Assembly (NCBI RefSeq): GCF_030063335.1
Contig: NZ_JASISW010000004.1
Span: forward strand, 248,001 to 312,000
Length of the DNA: 64,000 nucleotides
Source: Rhodococcus sp. G-MC3
GTDB lineage: Bacteria > Actinomycetota > Actinomycetes > Mycobacteriales > Mycobacteriaceae
Direction of reading: 5' to 3'
Positions 1 through 63,806 of the stretch are shown here, one piece after another (position 1 is the stretch's first letter; each line of letters begins with the position of its first letter). The notes beneath the pieces were generated by a model. It did not search any database. It worked only from the letters and a program-made list of their open reading frames with translations, and was not told the origin of the DNA. The translations under genes were made by a program, and so were the position numbers.

Positions 1-1343
1 TCGATGCGGTGAGCGCCGAACAGAATCCGACGCAGAGCCTCTTCGGTCGTCTCCGCCCGCGCCGACCACCGTCTCGCTCGATGAACTGCCCTGGACGACT
101 GCATGGTCACCGTTGCCGAATCGGCGGCGTCGAACACCACGACAACTTCCCCTGCCCGACCAGGCCCTACCTCGTCGGCCAGTCGCGCCAAGGTATCGGG
201 AGAGAAGCGAACACGTCCCGACACCGCGACGGCGAATCGGCACCGCGCCAGAATTGCCGCCTCGGGTACCCCGCTGCGAACCCGCGAATCATCGATCCGC
301 AATTCAGTGTGCAGCTCGACGGCGTCGTCTCCGACCAACCACACTGCGCTGTCACTTCCCCGGACTGCGCTGGCAATCGTCAGCGACAGCGATGCTGCTG
401 TGTGCCCCAGCGTGGACACGAGAACCACGAAGTCCGGGATCCAGTAGTGCAGACCCGACGTTCGCGCTGCCGGATCGGTGATCGACGACGCCAACGCGAG
501 CGCCTCTGCATTTTTGCTTGAAATCCTATCCGGCACAGCTCTTTCCGCCCAATCAGGTCCGTCGTGCCACGCCAGCGCATCGGACGCATGGGCGAACACT
601 GCACCCATCATGAACGCTCGATTCGCGAACTCCCAGTCTTCTCCGCCGTAGCGAACGAAGGTGGAATCAAAGCCACCCGTGTCCAGGAAAAGCTGCCGGC
701 TACAGGTCAACACCGCGCTCAGCATGTACTTGTATCCGTCCCAACCCGGTTCCAGCAGATCCGCTGTTCGCTCGTAGCCGTCCACCAGCCACTGCGGTTC
801 ACTCTCGTGCGAACGGGCGCGCCAGGAGTTGTCCGCGATCCACGTAGCCACTGTGTCCACGGTGACCGATGACAGGTCGGCATGTTTCCGCCGGCCGACG
901 ACCATCACGTCCGGCGCGGCAGACGGTAGCCGGACAGCTCGCCGCACGTAATCGGGCACCGGCACCGTGTCCGCGTCGAGAAAGCACAGAATTGATCCGT
1001 TCGATGCGGCTGCGCCCAGATTCCGCGCCGCGGCAGCTCGAAAACCCCTGTTCTCCTGCCGCACCACCGTGATCGAGAGGTCCGCTGCCCACTGATCGAT
1101 GTCGGGCGGCGTCGCCGACCCGTCGTCGGCGACAACCACGTCGATGAGCTCGCGCGGATAGGTCTGGGTCGTCAACGCTTCGAGCACGAGCGCCAACTGA
1201 CGTGGTTGCTCGTAATACGGGATGACAACACTCACCGTCGGTGTGTGTTCCGCTTCTTTCGCGAGGTCCCAGCGATTGTCGGGCAGGATCTCGCGGCCGC
1301 CCGCCTCTCGGAACGGCGGGAGTGCGATCGGTACGGAAGTCAT
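1..1343 (-). CDS. Family 2 glycosyltransferase, 3' end beyond window
   Basis: This is an inverting GT2-type glycosyltransferase that should transfer a sugar from a nucleotide donor on the cytoplasmic side of the membrane. The fold starts with VSVVIPYYEQP (about residues 37-47). It has the nucleotide-binding DDGS at 73-76, the metal-binding DAD at 123-125, and a GGEDWE acceptor/catalytic segment at 233-238. At least 447 residues are visible and no stop is reached at the window edge, so a C-terminal extension of 150 or more residues follows the GT2 domain. The ATG overlaps the stop of the upstream glycosyltransferase by 4 bases, so it is the third gene of a leftward operon. Acceptor and sugar are unknown. 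The family call is firm from the motifs; the pathway is not. Confidence 0.85.
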   Translation of the reverse strand, partial: MTSVPIALPPFREAGGREILPDNRWDLAKEAEHTPTVSVVIPYYEQPRQLALVLEALTTQTYPRELIDVVVADDGSATPPDIDQWAADLSITVVRQENRGFRAAAARNLGAAASNGSILCFLDADTVPVPDYVRRAVRLPSAAPDVMVVGRRKHADLSSVTVDTVATWIADNSWRARSHESEPQWLVDGYERTADLLEPGWDGYKYMLSAVLTCSRQLFLDTGGFDSTFVRYGGEDWEFANRAFMMGAVFAHASDALAWHDGPDWAERAVPDRISSKNAEALALASSITDPAARTSGLHYWIPDFVVLVSTLGHTAASLSLTIASAVRGSDSAVWLVGDDAVELHTELRIDDSRVRSGVPEAAILARCRFAVAVSGRVRFSPDTLARLADEVGPGRAGEVVVVFDAADSATVTMQSSRAVHRARRWSARAETTEEALRRILFGAHRI

Positions 1344-57959: not shown

Positions 57960-57997
57960 ATGTAGTGTAGCTACTACATGCGATGTAGTAGCTACAT
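57960..57997. promoter_or_regulatory. Overlapping TGTA/TACA inverted repeats, BlaI-type operator
   Basis: TGTAGCTACTACAT (57966-57979) and its exact reverse complement (57983-57996) flank a 3-base centre, forming a 31-base perfect inverted repeat. Extra half sites at 57960-57966 (ATGTAGT) and the nested dyad ATGTAG-TAG-CTACAT (57983-57997) overlap it. The array lies 39-76 bases upstream of the NRPS start, where it would block transcription. TACA/TGTA half sites are the established recognition pattern of BlaI/MecI repressors, and a BlaI-type gene lies at the right edge of the window. Confidence 0.65.
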
Positions 57998-58035: not shown

Positions 58036-61000
58036 ATGTCGAGTTTTGCTGCCATTACGACGACGTCCGCCCAGCGCGATATCTGGTATGCCCAGAATCT
58101 CTCCCCCGCCGTACCGTTCACAATTGCCCACTACGTCGATCTGGTCGGAGAAGTGGACCTGCAGGTTCTCGCACACTGTGCGGACCGAGCTCATCGCGAG
58201 TTCGGGTCGACCACCGTGCGGTTCGTCGACAACGACGGCGCCCCGGAGCAGCGGCGGGCCGCGGGGCGACTGTCCGTATCGGTCGTCGACCTCAGGTCCG
58301 AAGCCGACCCGGAAGCCGAAGCTCACCGGTGGATGGGTGATGATTGCCTGACGCCTTGCGCGCTCGATTCGCCGTGCTTGGTCACCGCAGCAATCCTGCG
58401 CATTACCGACCACCGGTGCTTCTGGTACACCAGAGCCCATCACATCGTCCTCGACGGTTACGGATCGATGATGGTGCTCCGGCGAACCGCCGAGCTATTT
58501 CTCGCCGCAACCACCGGAACGACACCAGATCCGGTCGATCCGATGAGTCCCGTCGACACTCTGACGGCAGACGCCAAATACACGGCGTCGACGCGTTACG
58601 AGCGAGACAAGCACTACTGGGCGAACATCATGAACGAGGTCGAATCGCAGACGTCCCTAGCCGGACGCTCCGCGCCGCCCGCTGCACACTGTCATCGCGT
58701 CAGCGGGACCATCCCGAACTCCGCTGTGCCCGAGTCGGATCGATGGATCGAGCGTGGAACCAAAACATCGACGGTGATGGTCGCAGCTTTTGCCGCTTTC
58801 CACGCCCGAATGACAGACACACCCGACACGACCCTGGCGCTTCCCTTGGCAGGAAGACCCACCGCCCGTCTACGGCAATCCGGTGGCACACATTCCACCG
58901 TGGTACCGCTTCCACTACCGGGAATCGGAACAACCACCGTCGACGGCGCAGTCAAACTCACCGAAGTCGCCGTTACAGGAGCCCTCCGGCACCAACTCTT
59001 TCAGTCCGCATACGGATCCGACGACGTCCACGATCGCGGACCCGTCGTCAACCTCATGCTGTTCGACGACCGCGTACCACTGGGGCCCGTCGACGGCACC
59101 CTGCACATCCTCACGACAGGTCCGGTAGCCGACATAGCGCTCGACATCCACCAGGGGCGCTCGGATGAGCAGTGGGGCTGGGAGTTCGAAGCCAATCCAG
59201 CCCTGTACTCCCCCGACGATCTCGATCTGCTCGCCCAGCGGTTCGTACATTTTCTTCATCAGTTCCTGCGTCCGGACGACCACGATACAAATATTGCCGA
59301 GCTCGAGCTCGAGCTCCCCGACCGCGCCAGCCCTCCCGTGCAGTCCGGGCGTCCTGCGACCGAAACTTCGACGCTGCCCGGTCTGCTCGTTCGACGTTGC
59401 AGCGATCGTGCACATTGTCCCGCAGTGCGATACAACGGCAGCGAGATCTCGTACAGCGAACTCGACAGAGAATCGAATTCCCTCGCCGGCGCACTCGCTG
59501 CCCACGGAATCCGGACCGGCGATACCGTCGCTGTGATGGTCCCGCGGTCCATCGATTCGGTGGTCGCATTCTGGGCGGTCGCACGATCGGGCGCTACCTA
59601 CCTCCCGATAGACTCGAACTTCCCTCCCGCGCGAATCGAGTACATCCTCGCGGATTCCGCGGCGAAGTTGGCGCTGTGCATCGACTCGACGCACACGAGT
59701 GCGGGTGCAGTCACCACCCTGAGAGTCGACGACGCCGGCAATCGCCGGCACGGGGATGCGCTGACTGCCCAAATCGCCCCGAACGATTCCGCGTACGTCA
59801 TCTACACCTCGGGTACCACCGGTGCCCCCAAAGGCGTGTCGGTCACTCATGCCGGGCTCGGCCCACTCGTCGCCCACATGGACGACGTATATCGACTGAG
59901 TACGGAGTCGCGAATACTGCACTGTGCATCAACGAGTTTCGATACGTCCCTGGTAGAAATGCTCGCCGCCGCAACCGCAGGATGCACCCTGGTGGTGCCG
60001 CCAACCGAGATCGCCGGTGGGCGAGAACTGACTTCTACGATGGCGCACGAAGGTGTGACTCACTTGTTTGCGACTCCATCGGTACTCGCCACTCTCGCGC
60101 CGGCTTCACTCGCCGATCTCGCGGTCGTCATCAGCGGTGGCGAACCGTGCCCACAGCAACTGGCAGACGCGGTGAGTGAACACGTGGCCCTGTTCAATGC
60201 CTACGGTCCCACCGAAACCACCTGCAGCGTGACGATGACCGGCGCGCTGACACCCGGAGAATCGGTCACCATCGGCACGCCGATGCGCGGTGTCGACACG
60301 ATGGTGTTGGACCGCAGTCTGCGGCCTCGACCTGTTGGAACACTGGGCGAGCTCTACATTTCGGCCGCTGCGGTGGCCCGTGGATATGTGGGACGACCGA
60401 AAGAGACCGCCTCTCGATTCGTCGCTGCGCCGTTCGGCCGACCTGGCCACCGCATGTACCGGACCGGAGATGTCGTTAGGCGGCGCGTAGACGGCACTCT
60501 CGACTACGTCGGCCGCGGTGATGCGCAGGTGAAACTGCGCGGTATCCGAATCGAACCGGCAGAAGTCGATGCCGCACTGTGCACCTTCGGGCCGGTGCAA
60601 CAGTCGATCACAACCATTGTCGAACCACGCGAGGGTCATTCGGTGCTCGTATCGTACGTGGTCGCGGCTCCGCATACGTCGATAGATCCCGTTGCGGTGC
60701 GCACCTTCGTTGCCGCACTGCTGCCGGCGTACATGGTCCCGGCGACAGTGACTGTGCTCGATTGCGTACCGCTGACTCCGAACGGAAAGGTGGACATGCG
60801 GGCATTGCCCTCACCGACAACGGCATTCGAAATGTCGTCCGTGCACGCCGCGCCTCGCGGGCAGACGGAAGTCGCGCTTGCCGAGATCTTCACCGCAGTC
60901 CTCGCCCTGGATTCGATCGACGCGAACATTTCCTTCTTCGATCTCGGCGGCAATTCGCTTGCTGCTACGAGAGTCGTAGGACAGATCAACGCTTGTTTGC

Positions 61001-62433
61001 ACGTATCGGTTGCAGTCCGCGACCTCGTAGCGCATCCGACCATTCGTTCTCTCGCGGCGACGCTCGAATACGCGGACGCCGCGATCACACGGCCGGTGCC
61101 CGGTAGCTCCGACGGCGTTGCGGTGATACCCCTCGCACCGCCACAGGCACACTTGGACAGAACTACCGACGTTGCGCTCTACAACCTGCCGTTCACCATC
61201 GAGGTGAGCGCCCCGGTGAACGTGGGTGCACTCGAACTCGCACTTCGCGACGTCATCGAGCGTCACCGGACGCTCCGTACTGTCTACGCGGATTCGCAAT
61301 GGGGGCCGCGGCAGATCGTACGACCGATGGATGTGGCCGACATCCCGGTCGTCGAATACGCCGACATGGATTCGCTTCTTGCCATGCTGCACAGAGGCTT
61401 CGACGTTTCTTCCGATCTTCCGATTCGTATCGGATACACCCGCGGCGCCACGACACACATCGTCGGTTGCACGATCCACCACATCGCGGCCGACGGGTGG
61501 TCACTCGGTGTGCTGGCCCGCGACATACTGGGGGCCTACCTCGCGCGCGTCGACGGAGCCGCGCCCGCGTGGACAGAGCTCCCGCTTCACTACGCCGACT
61601 ATGCAGTGTGGGCAAACGCAGCCACATACGATTCCGACGTCGAATACTGGCGCCGCGAACTCGCAGGTTGTCCGAGCGAGTTGCCGCTTCCCTTCGATCG
61701 GGAGCGACCCTCCGTCGCGAGTCTTCGTGCCGGGCGTAGGCAGGCATACATCGAGGACTATGCAGTGCAGAAGTTGACCGATGTAGGGGCACGCGTCGGA
61801 GCGGGATTGTTCACTGCTGTCCGCGCTGCCTTGGTCATCACTCTTGCCCGGCTCACCTCCAGCACCGACATCGTCATCGGGACCCCGACTGCCGGCCGGA
61901 CGGATCCGATGCTCGACGACCTCGTCGGCATGTTCGTCAACACCCTGGCGATGAGGACCGACATCTCCGGCGCGGAGTACATGACGGATGTCGTTCGTCT
62001 GTGCCACGACACCGAGGTTCGCGCGCTGGACCATTCCGGCGTGCAGTTCGAGGAACTTGTCGGCGTCCTCGAGCCTGCACGCCCCAGTTGGGCACATCCG
62101 TTCTTCCAGGTTGCGCTGTCCTACGACACATTCGTTCCGATGCACCTCGACACAGCCGATCTGATCGCCGCAATTGTGCCGCGGCCGGTGGACGTCGCTC
62201 GGTGCGACATCCATGTTCATGTCGCTGCCGTTCATGTCGCTGCCGTTCATGTTGCTGCCGAACCCTCGTCAGCAGGGATCTCAGCGCTGAACATCGACGT
62301 CGTGTACTCCCACGATGTGTTCGAAGACTCCACTGTCGCGGCGTTCACCGACAGTTTTCTCGGCGTCGTATCGGAGCTGTGTACCGACCCATCTGCCCGA
62401 TGGGCGATCTCGCCGAACAACCAGGAGCGTTGA
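58036..62433 (+). CDS. Nonribosomal peptide synthetase, C-A-PCP-C
   Basis: A 1465-residue single-module synthetase with an extra condensation domain. The first C domain carries HHIVLDG (135-141). The adenylation domain carries YTSGTTGAPKG from 590 and NAYGPTETT from 721. The carrier domain has Ser974 in FDLGGNSLAATR. The terminal C domain carries HHIAADG (1148-1154) and ends without thioesterase or reductase. Reading the ten pocket positions by eye gives roughly D-T-V-F-I-G-A-C-S-K, which matches no specificity I can name. It activates one amino acid, condenses an upstream acyl or aminoacyl donor to it, and then needs an acceptor in trans. A short in-frame tandem repeat lies near the C-terminus. 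Upstream operator repeats suggest BlaI control. Confidence 0.92.
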   Translation: MSSFAAITTTSAQRDIWYAQNLSPAVPFTIAHYVDLVGEVDLQVLAHCADRAHREFGSTTVRFVDNDGAPEQRRAAGRLSVSVVDLRSEADPEAEAHRWMGDDCLTPCALDSPCLVTAAILRITDHRCFWYTRAHHIVLDGYGSMMVLRRTAELFLAATTGTTPDPVDPMSPVDTLTADAKYTASTRYERDKHYWANIMNEVESQTSLAGRSAPPAAHCHRVSGTIPNSAVPESDRWIERGTKTSTVMVAAFAAFHARMTDTPDTTLALPLAGRPTARLRQSGGTHSTVVPLPLPGIGTTTVDGAVKLTEVAVTGALRHQLFQSAYGSDDVHDRGPVVNLMLFDDRVPLGPVDGTLHILTTGPVADIALDIHQGRSDEQWGWEFEANPALYSPDDLDLLAQRFVHFLHQFLRPDDHDTNIAELELELPDRASPPVQSGRPATETSTLPGLLVRRCSDRAHCPAVRYNGSEISYSELDRESNSLAGALAAHGIRTGDTVAVMVPRSIDSVVAFWAVARSGATYLPIDSNFPPARIEYILADSAAKLALCIDSTHTSAGAVTTLRVDDAGNRRHGDALTAQIAPNDSAYVIYTSGTTGAPKGVSVTHAGLGPLVAHMDDVYRLSTESRILHCASTSFDTSLVEMLAAATAGCTLVVPPTEIAGGRELTSTMAHEGVTHLFATPSVLATLAPASLADLAVVISGGEPCPQQLADAVSEHVALFNAYGPTETTCSVTMTGALTPGESVTIGTPMRGVDTMVLDRSLRPRPVGTLGELYISAAAVARGYVGRPKETASRFVAAPFGRPGHRMYRTGDVVRRRVDGTLDYVGRGDAQVKLRGIRIEPAEVDAALCTFGPVQQSITTIVEPREGHSVLVSYVVAAPHTSIDPVAVRTFVAALLPAYMVPATVTVLDCVPLTPNGKVDMRALPSPTTAFEMSSVHAAPRGQTEVALAEIFTAVLALDSIDANISFFDLGGNSLAATRVVGQINACLHVSVAVRDLVAHPTIRSLAATLEYADAAITRPVPGSSDGVAVIPLAPPQAHLDRTTDVALYNLPFTIEVSAPVNVGALELALRDVIERHRTLRTVYADSQWGPRQIVRPMDVADIPVVEYADMDSLLAMLHRGFDVSSDLPIRIGYTRGATTHIVGCTIHHIAADGWSLGVLARDILGAYLARVDGAAPAWTELPLHYADYAVWANAATYDSDVEYWRRELAGCPSELPLPFDRERPSVASLRAGRRQAYIEDYAVQKLTDVGARVGAGLFTAVRAALVITLARLTSSTDIVIGTPTAGRTDPMLDDLVGMFVNTLAMRTDISGAEYMTDVVRLCHDTEVRALDHSGVQFEELVGVLEPARPSWAHPFFQVALSYDTFVPMHLDTADLIAAIVPRPVDVARCDIHVHVAAVHVAAVHVAAEPSSAGISALNIDVVYSHDVFEDSTVAAFTDSFLGVVSELCTDPSARWAISPNNQER
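62215..62259 (+). repeat. 15-bp tandem repeat, three copies, inside the NRPS
   Basis: The unit GTTCATGTCGCTGCC occurs three times in tandem (third copy with one change), encoding repeated VHVAA in the last condensation domain. It is in frame, so copy number could vary without breaking the gene. Confidence 0.85.
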
Positions 62434-62915
62434 TGTCGACATTCGATGGACTTCCCGTCCATATACTGCTGGTCCATGCAATTGTCGTGCTGGCACCGCT
62501 GACTGCGTTGCTCGAAATTGTCTGCGCCGTATGGCGTCCCGCTCGGCAACGCCTCGTCTGGCTCGTGTTGGCGCTCGCTGTGTCCACCATGATTCTCACA
62601 CCGATCACCACCGATGCAGGCGAATGGCTGGAAAGGCACATCCCCTCGACGGAGGCGCTGAGAACCCACACCGAACTGGGCGACTGGATGATCTATTTCG
62701 CTGCCGGACTTCTACTCGTTGCAGTTGCTCTGACGGCGCTGCACATTACTGAATCTCGATCGACCGGCCGGCGCACGATAACAACCGTCGTCGTGGCGAT
62801 CGCGGCAGTGGTCATCGGCGTGGGCTCCACCATCGGGGTGTACCGCATCGGCGAGTCGGGGGCCGAAGCAGTATGGGGCGACACCGAATACACCCAGCAA
62901 GCACCGGATGAATAG
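62433..62915 (+). CDS. DUF2231 membrane protein
   Basis: A 160-residue protein with four predicted helices of the DUF2231 type: FDGLPVHILLVHAIVVLAPLTALL, RLVWLVLALAVSTMILTPITTDAGEWLE, WMIYFAAGLLLVAVALTAL and ITTVVVAIAAVVIGVGSTIGVYRIGESGAEAVW. The conserved HxLxxH (PVHILLVHA) at the start hints at a metal or haem site. Its ATG overlaps the NRPS stop by one base with AGGAG before it, so it is co-translated with the NRPS, possibly as a membrane partner. Confidence 0.85.
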   Translation: MSTFDGLPVHILLVHAIVVLAPLTALLEIVCAVWRPARQRLVWLVLALAVSTMILTPITTDAGEWLERHIPSTEALRTHTELGDWMIYFAAGLLLVAVALTALHITESRSTGRRTITTVVVAIAAVVIGVGSTIGVYRIGESGAEAVWGDTEYTQQAPDE

Positions 62916-62918
62916 CGG

Positions 62919-63806
62919 CTAGCGGAAGACGGACGTCGGAGGTTCCCCCCACTCGGGGCTCACGACGTCTTGCACCACATCGAACAATCCAACCGAAACC
63001 ACGCTCAGCGCTACGACGAACAACGCGATAACGAGCACCACCGAACGCTTCTGGGGCGGCGGAACGGGACCTGCCAGCGCTCGAACCCGTTCCACGATGT
63101 CACCTCCCGAACCTCCGGGTAGGTCCGTCGCGGACATTCTTCGATGCGCACTGTGCAGCAATGCAACTCGGGCGATGGCCTCTAGCACGACCTGGCGATC
63201 ACCCAGGGCAGCGAATTCGTCGGCCTGCCGCTCCGCGGCTCTCCGGACAATTACTGCGAGAGACCGTAGCAGCGGGTTCATCTCGGCGGAGACCTCGGCG
63301 GATTGAATCCAGAAATGATGACGGAACCGGAGGTGTGCCCTCTCGTGTGCCACGACAGCCGCGACCTGTTGCTCGTCGAGCGCCTCGATCAAGGCCGACG
63401 TCACCATCACGACGCCGCCTGCGGACGGCGAGGCGAAGGCGTCGGGCACATCGTCGTCGATGACAACGACATCGCTCACCGACGATCGCATTCGAGTGAA
63501 CGCGGCCGCTGCTCGGGCACTCGAGAACACCCTGGCGCCGTGCAACACCACACGGCACAGCCGCCACACGAGCACCGCAAGAACGAAGGCTCCTAGTACC
63601 CGTAGCCAGGGCACGGGCTGAGAGACGAGTACAGCACCCACCGCGGCTGCTGATGACGCAACAGCAAACGCGGTTACCAACGCCAACACCGGAACGACGA
63701 ACACCGTTGCCGCGGGGGTCAGGCTGCGACTCAGGATCGGCCGGGCAGGCCATAACGCGATACAGAGAATCCACGGCGTGAGGGCAACGAGGAGAAAGCC
63801 CGTCAA
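62919..63806 (-). CDS. M56-family (BlaR1-like) membrane metallopeptidase
   Basis: A 295-residue integral membrane zinc peptidase. It has three N-terminal helices in the first 80 residues, a cytoplasmic HExxH site (His154-Glu155, His158 in VVAHERAHLR) with the third ligand likely Glu193 in AAERQADEF, and a C-terminal helix (VVLVIALFVVALSVVSVGLFDVV). It lacks the external penicillin-binding sensor of classic BlaR1. Its TTG start overlaps the BlaI-type stop by 4 bases, as in blaI-blaR pairs. It presumably cleaves or inactivates the repressor after an unknown signal. Confidence 0.88.
   Translation of the reverse strand: MTGFLLVALTPWILCIALWPARPILSRSLTPAATVFVVPVLALVTAFAVASSAAAVGAVLVSQPVPWLRVLGAFVLAVLVWRLCRVVLHGARVFSSARAAAAFTRMRSSVSDVVVIDDDVPDAFASPSAGGVVMVTSALIEALDEQQVAAVVAHERAHLRFRHHFWIQSAEVSAEMNPLLRSLAVIVRRAAERQADEFAALGDRQVVLEAIARVALLHSAHRRMSATDLPGGSGGDIVERVRALAGPVPPPQKRSVVLVIALFVVALSVVSVGLFDVVQDVVSPEWGEPPTSVFR

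Follow-up and report, generated by a model that had tools for sequence, protein, structure and literature searches.

A conserved inverted repeat in front of a Rhodococcus NRPS gene is a putative operator of a BlaI-type repressor from the same gene cassette

Systems pairing a BlaI-type repressor with a protease are known mainly from beta-lactam resistance, and in mycobacteria from ATP synthase and cell-division genes. The protease neighbouring the mycobacterial repressor Rv1846c is not known to carry a sensor domain. The BlaI regulon of Mycobacterium tuberculosis was reportedly described by Sala et al. in 2009. According to PMC12565901 and PMC8265638, BlaI of mycobacteria has a bearing on cell division as well as on ATP synthase and sensitivity to beta-lactams. 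BlaI-type operators correspond to TACANNTGTA, i.e. TAC-N4-GTA, in the portion of PMC7253601 consulted.

The window analysed here is a stretch of 64,000 nucleotides from Rhodococcus sp. G-MC3. Close to its end, an NRPS gene and a DUF2231 gene face the genes for a membrane metalloprotease and a BlaI-type repressor. This set is referred to below as the cassette, and its features are as follows.

57963-57968, plus strand: putative -10 box TAGTGT, directly 5' of the operator; its TAnnnT offset is shared with most relatives
57966-57996, no strand: inverted repeat in its full extent, 14-base arms and 3-base spacer
57972-57990, no strand: putative operator core TACTAC-N7-GTAGTA, 5' of the NRPS; conserved as a footprint across 24/24 cassette loci
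58036-62433, plus strand: NRPS of 1465 aa, Condensation-Adenylation-Carrier-Condensation (Pfam; both HHxxxDG motifs)
62433-62915, plus strand: DUF2231 membrane protein (Pfam PF09990); its start overlaps the NRPS stop
62919-63806, minus strand: membrane metalloprotease, BlaR1/HtpX-like, HERAH at residues 154-158 (PF01435)
63803-64177, minus strand: BlaI-type repressor gene (PF03965), of which the window covers the 3' part to 64000

The arms TGTAGCTACTACAT (57966-57979) and ATGTAGTAGCTACA (57983-57996) confirm the exact 14-base inverted copy across 3 bases that a first-pass annotation had placed upstream of the NRPS. The repeat is located in a 154-bp gap between the end of a permease ORF (57881) and the NRPS start (58036), and its outer bases differ in the closest relative. 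Two details of that annotation had to be amended. The spacing TACTACA-N3-TGTAGTA is incorrect, as 5 bases lie between these arms and the 3-base spacer belongs to the longer 14-base ones; the extra TGTAGT half site upstream is better read as the -10 box. We regard TACTAC-N7-GTAGTA as a conserved, putative DNA operator.

As in the BlaI/MecI and BlaR1/MecR1 systems, a Penicillinase_R repressor is encoded beside a membrane HExxH protease, and TAC/GTA inverted half-sites lie over a promoter. Differences are several. The half-sites are spaced by N7, and the dyad, formerly described as of BlaI/MecI type, is thus distinct from the canonical N4 operator TACANNTGTA as this is given in the same portion of PMC7253601. 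The protease lacks the penicillin-binding sensor domain of BlaR1/MecR1, the putative targets are NRPS and DUF2231 genes rather than beta-lactamase or mecA, and, in contrast to classical BlaI autoregulation, the blaI promoter usually carries no operator. CopY/CopR repressors belong to the same superfamily and also have operators over the promoter, but CopY senses metal by CXC motifs (PMC7253601, in part), whereas the alignment of cassette BlaI proteins contains no cysteine. Titles and abstract openings of open-licence articles on BlaI, NRPS, Rhodococcus and Streptomyces do not describe the cassette.

The cassette BlaI, whose start codon is found 177 bases past the window end, scores 66.4 bits for PF03965 (Penicillinase_R; cut-off 22.6). 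The closest solved structure is 2g9w, which we take to be Rv1846c; an actinobacterial BlaI and a sensor-less protease are further traits shared with the mycobacterial system. In this genome, however, the gene resembling Rv1846c is another one, encoded on contig C102 and associated with N5 sites. The neighbouring protease (295 aa) reaches 50.6 bits for PF01435 (M48), above the cut-off. No match to PF05569 (M56) was obtained with the protein up to E 1, and the best of two relatives tried scored 15.3 bits against a cut-off of 31. Residues H154, E155 and H158, forming the HExxH zinc site, are invariant in 14/14 aligned proteases, and in the structure model the site is flanked on both sides by long helices. 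The top four Foldseek matches are all BlaR1, but they are weak (E 0.026 or worse, TM 0.3 or less). No transpeptidase or penicillin-binding sensor domain was found in the protease by Pfam. The initial description of a BlaI gene and a sensor-less M56 peptidase after the NRPS-DUF2231 pair therefore holds for the genes and for the missing sensor, while the protease is M48-like by Pfam and not M56.

The NRPS displays the domain set of a modular NRPS and the catalytic motifs HHIVLDG, HHIAADG and LGGNSL; a thioesterase domain was not found by Pfam. The putative ten-letter substrate code, at positions set by GrsA motif anchors, reads DTV[LF][IVL]GACSK in all the 24 C-A-T-C sequences aligned, a set including L081 and leaving out the broken L084. 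In many relatives a gene of family F4 is interposed between the DUF2231 and protease genes.

Searches for the NRPS in 121 genomes retrieved close full-length relatives mostly within the genus, with 63% identity to the protein of genome G021 and about 45% to most others. The relatives named are Rhodococcus and Rhodococcoides strains, and Gordonia aichiensis. Neighbourhoods of up to 20 kb have been compared in 26 genomes, which together with the window make 27 loci (L086 is much shorter). The BlaI and protease genes adjoin the C-A-T-C NRPS in 24/27, the loci left out being L081 (no BlaI), L085 (decayed) and L086 (contig end). The 24 cassette loci come from the species under study, 22 others of the genus and one other genus. 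CTAC-N7-GTAG was found 5' of the NRPS in all of them, in 23 by script and in L083 by hand; in the scripted loci the dyad starts 37-65 bases before the NRPS start codon. The dyad was not found at L081, where an NRPS homologue is present without BlaI and protease genes. At L085 NRPS, BlaI and protease genes are gone, and the dyad remains along with DUF2231 remnants; the genome in which L086 meets a contig end (G018) carries BlaI and protease genes on another contig. Since the cassette is flanked by different genes in several locus groups, mere persistence of the neighbourhood is an unlikely cause of the linkage. Synteny and a footprint in 24/24 loci strongly support the early proposal that the site ties the NRPS locus to BlaI and a membrane metalloprotease. 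In one genome (G032, locus L084) the NRPS is split into two open frames, and BlaI, protease, DUF2231 and both dyads are kept.

The dyad is not confined to this NRPS. In Gordonia aichiensis, genes encoding an aromatic-amino-acid hydroxylase, an NRPS of C-A-T-TE type with a different ten-letter code, and DUF2231 are arranged in a row, divergent from the BlaI-protease pair, and TACTACAACGAATGTAGCA is found upstream of the row. The same BlaI-protease-DUF2231 set with a different NRPS and the dyad indicates that the site follows BlaI and not the NRPS. In G257, from a further genus (locus L135), the DUF2231 and BlaI-protease genes are divergent and separated by TACTACTTTCTCGATAGTA, an N7 dyad with one mismatch. 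The G257 DUF2231 assignment scores 21.7 bits, below the Pfam cut-off of 26.4, and no NRPS was found in this genome. Similarly, G026 (strain KRD197; L098/L136) has DUF2231, BlaI, protease and dyad, and no match to the NRPS. Judging from G026 and G257, the BlaI-protease pair may have DUF2231 as its core partner. The Gordonia hydroxylase gene (L099:7601-8362), which encodes a biopterin-dependent enzyme, lies directly 5' of the NRPS gene and is a hint at the substrate of that NRPS.

The sites do not stand out by frequency. The exact TGTAGNNNCTACA occurs at 2 places in the 5.6-Mb genome, both inside the array, and the reversed pattern gives 17. When 2 mismatches are allowed, 5 matches are found in the window versus 7.7 expected, with no excess, which leaves the exact form as the sole unusual one. 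Over the genome, TACTAC-N(2..12)-GTAGTA is not enriched either, with 3 places (4 matches per strand, of which a nested pair shares one place) versus 7 for the backward control. Enrichment by counts alone was consequently dropped, and the case stands on position and conservation: what is unusual about the sites is their placement, in three promoter regions, and their conservation.

Within the genus, WACTACN7GTAGTW (tallied by hand from the result table) has 33 sites in 24/37 genomes, 30 of which are at the cassette locus; the backward control has 5. The three strict sites outside the locus, in G009, G007 and G001, count against specificity. The cassette protease is encoded in 25/37 genomes. Strict dyad and protease occur together in 23 genomes and are both missing in 11; one has the dyad only and two the protease only (Fisher p 1e-6, uncorrected for relatedness). 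The dyad-only genome, G012, has a decayed locus, and the dyads of the protease-only genomes G021 and G026 each carry one changed base. The relaxed pattern WACTACN7GTAGNW, present in 178/401 genomes of the family, is unspecific and was discarded as evidence of enrichment.

Position relative to -10-like boxes is conserved as well. Of the 23 NRPS promoters where the script had located the dyad, 20 have a TAnnnT hexamer directly 5' of it, although no promoter was detected by a sigma-70 consensus scan. A second dyad is present at the promoter of 21 of the 27 DUF2231 genes scanned (L077 and L078 are among those without it), and its right half-site reads TAG..T in 21/21. Where DUF2231 has its own promoter, the second dyad thus usually overlaps the putative -10 box. 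Both arrangements fit a repressor that would block RNA polymerase. The situation differs at the promoters of blaI itself. Among 28 scanned with a position matrix, two (L061 and L135) score at least 14.6, that of the genome under study gives a weak 6.6, and no clear N7 site was found in the other 25. On these grounds autoregulation of cassette blaI appears not to be general, and the site formerly predicted before the BlaI gene is weak here and absent from most relatives.

We think it likely, with good confidence, that the repeat is the operator of a dedicated BlaI-type repressor, the one that the cassette itself encodes. The bacteria would probably keep the NRPS silent for as long as the protease leaves this repressor in place. 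A BlaI dimer would occupy TACTAC-N7-GTAGTA, covering or adjoining the -10 box at the NRPS promoter (and at that of DUF2231 where this gene has its own), and would block transcription. Upon a signal, the adjacent membrane metalloprotease would remove BlaI, and NRPS and DUF2231 would be expressed together. What the loci show is a conserved site that goes with BlaI and protease, has a recurrent place relative to -10-like boxes and is absent where BlaI is absent; from this we infer binding, repression, proteolysis, signal and product.

The repeat might alternatively act in the NRPS transcript, as an attenuator or a stabilising 5' leader. The leader of this genome does fold as a long hairpin across the repeat (z -2.7), yet neither an Rfam match above the gathering score nor a terminator tail was found. 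Moreover, in 31 sites, 28 of which had been chosen by a pattern fixing CTAC and GTAG, the four core pairs are invariant but for one cell, and the flanks vary without compensation. At DUF2231 promoters the right arm shares bases with the -10-like box, and the transcript would therefore not contain the whole repeat. A role as RNA hairpin is accordingly very improbable. Inverted repeats with short spacers are operators of many regulator families, and a TetR, MarR, PadR or GntR type protein encoded elsewhere could bind the site. Against this, BlaI is the one nameable regulator beside the NRPS in every group (in the 20-kb neighbourhoods, where recurring families are not all named), and the dyad accompanies BlaI to loci hosting another NRPS or none; we give such a regulator little chance.

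A similarly small chance is left to the other BlaI of the genome (C102:85065), to which the cassette BlaI is a paralogue of 34% identity, and which by eye is the one most like 2g9w in the alignments. At its own promoter this housekeeping protein likewise has TACTAC half-sites, and TACTAC-N5-GTAGTA was found there in 30/30 loci examined (30 of 38 BlaI matches were taken in). These own sites are, however, N5 and not N7. Its gene is present in 37/37 genomes of the genus, yet a strict N7 site is missing from 11/12 of those lacking the cassette; since these 11 encode it too, the housekeeping BlaI is an improbable regulator of N7 sites, and the cassette BlaI remains the preferred one.

A site of the housekeeping type, TACTACTACGCGTAGTA (G000:C36:244327-244343, corresponding to L168:1501-1517), with N5/N2 half-sites, is located about 90 bases 5' of the gene for cytochrome bd oxidase subunit I (PF01654). 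Similar sites occur in many genomes of the genus, the link to bd oxidase having been seen in the genome under study. The arrangement suggests that the housekeeping BlaI may control bd oxidase.

A broader reading is tentative, and we hold it somewhat less probable than an even chance. The paralogous BlaI proteins would share TACTAC half-sites and be separated only by the spacer, N5 (or N2/N5) for the housekeeping and N7 for the cassette protein. The former type would act at the promoter of the housekeeping blaI gene itself and probably at that of cytochrome bd oxidase, the latter at the NRPS and DUF2231 promoters. BlaI, protease and DUF2231 would make up a portable module, which has taken over two different NRPSs and controls, through regulated proteolysis, what they produce, DUF2231 being a sensor, exporter or immunity partner. 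With the cassette, nature itself would provide a means to test if paralogous BlaI regulons are kept apart by spacer length alone. The conserved link between BlaI/protease and a small NRPS would also open a way of activating a silent peptide pathway through deletion of one repressor gene. Past the window end, a gene for a VIT-family transporter (PF01988; L003:7322-8062) is found beside blaI and divergent from it, and may be a member of the regulon.
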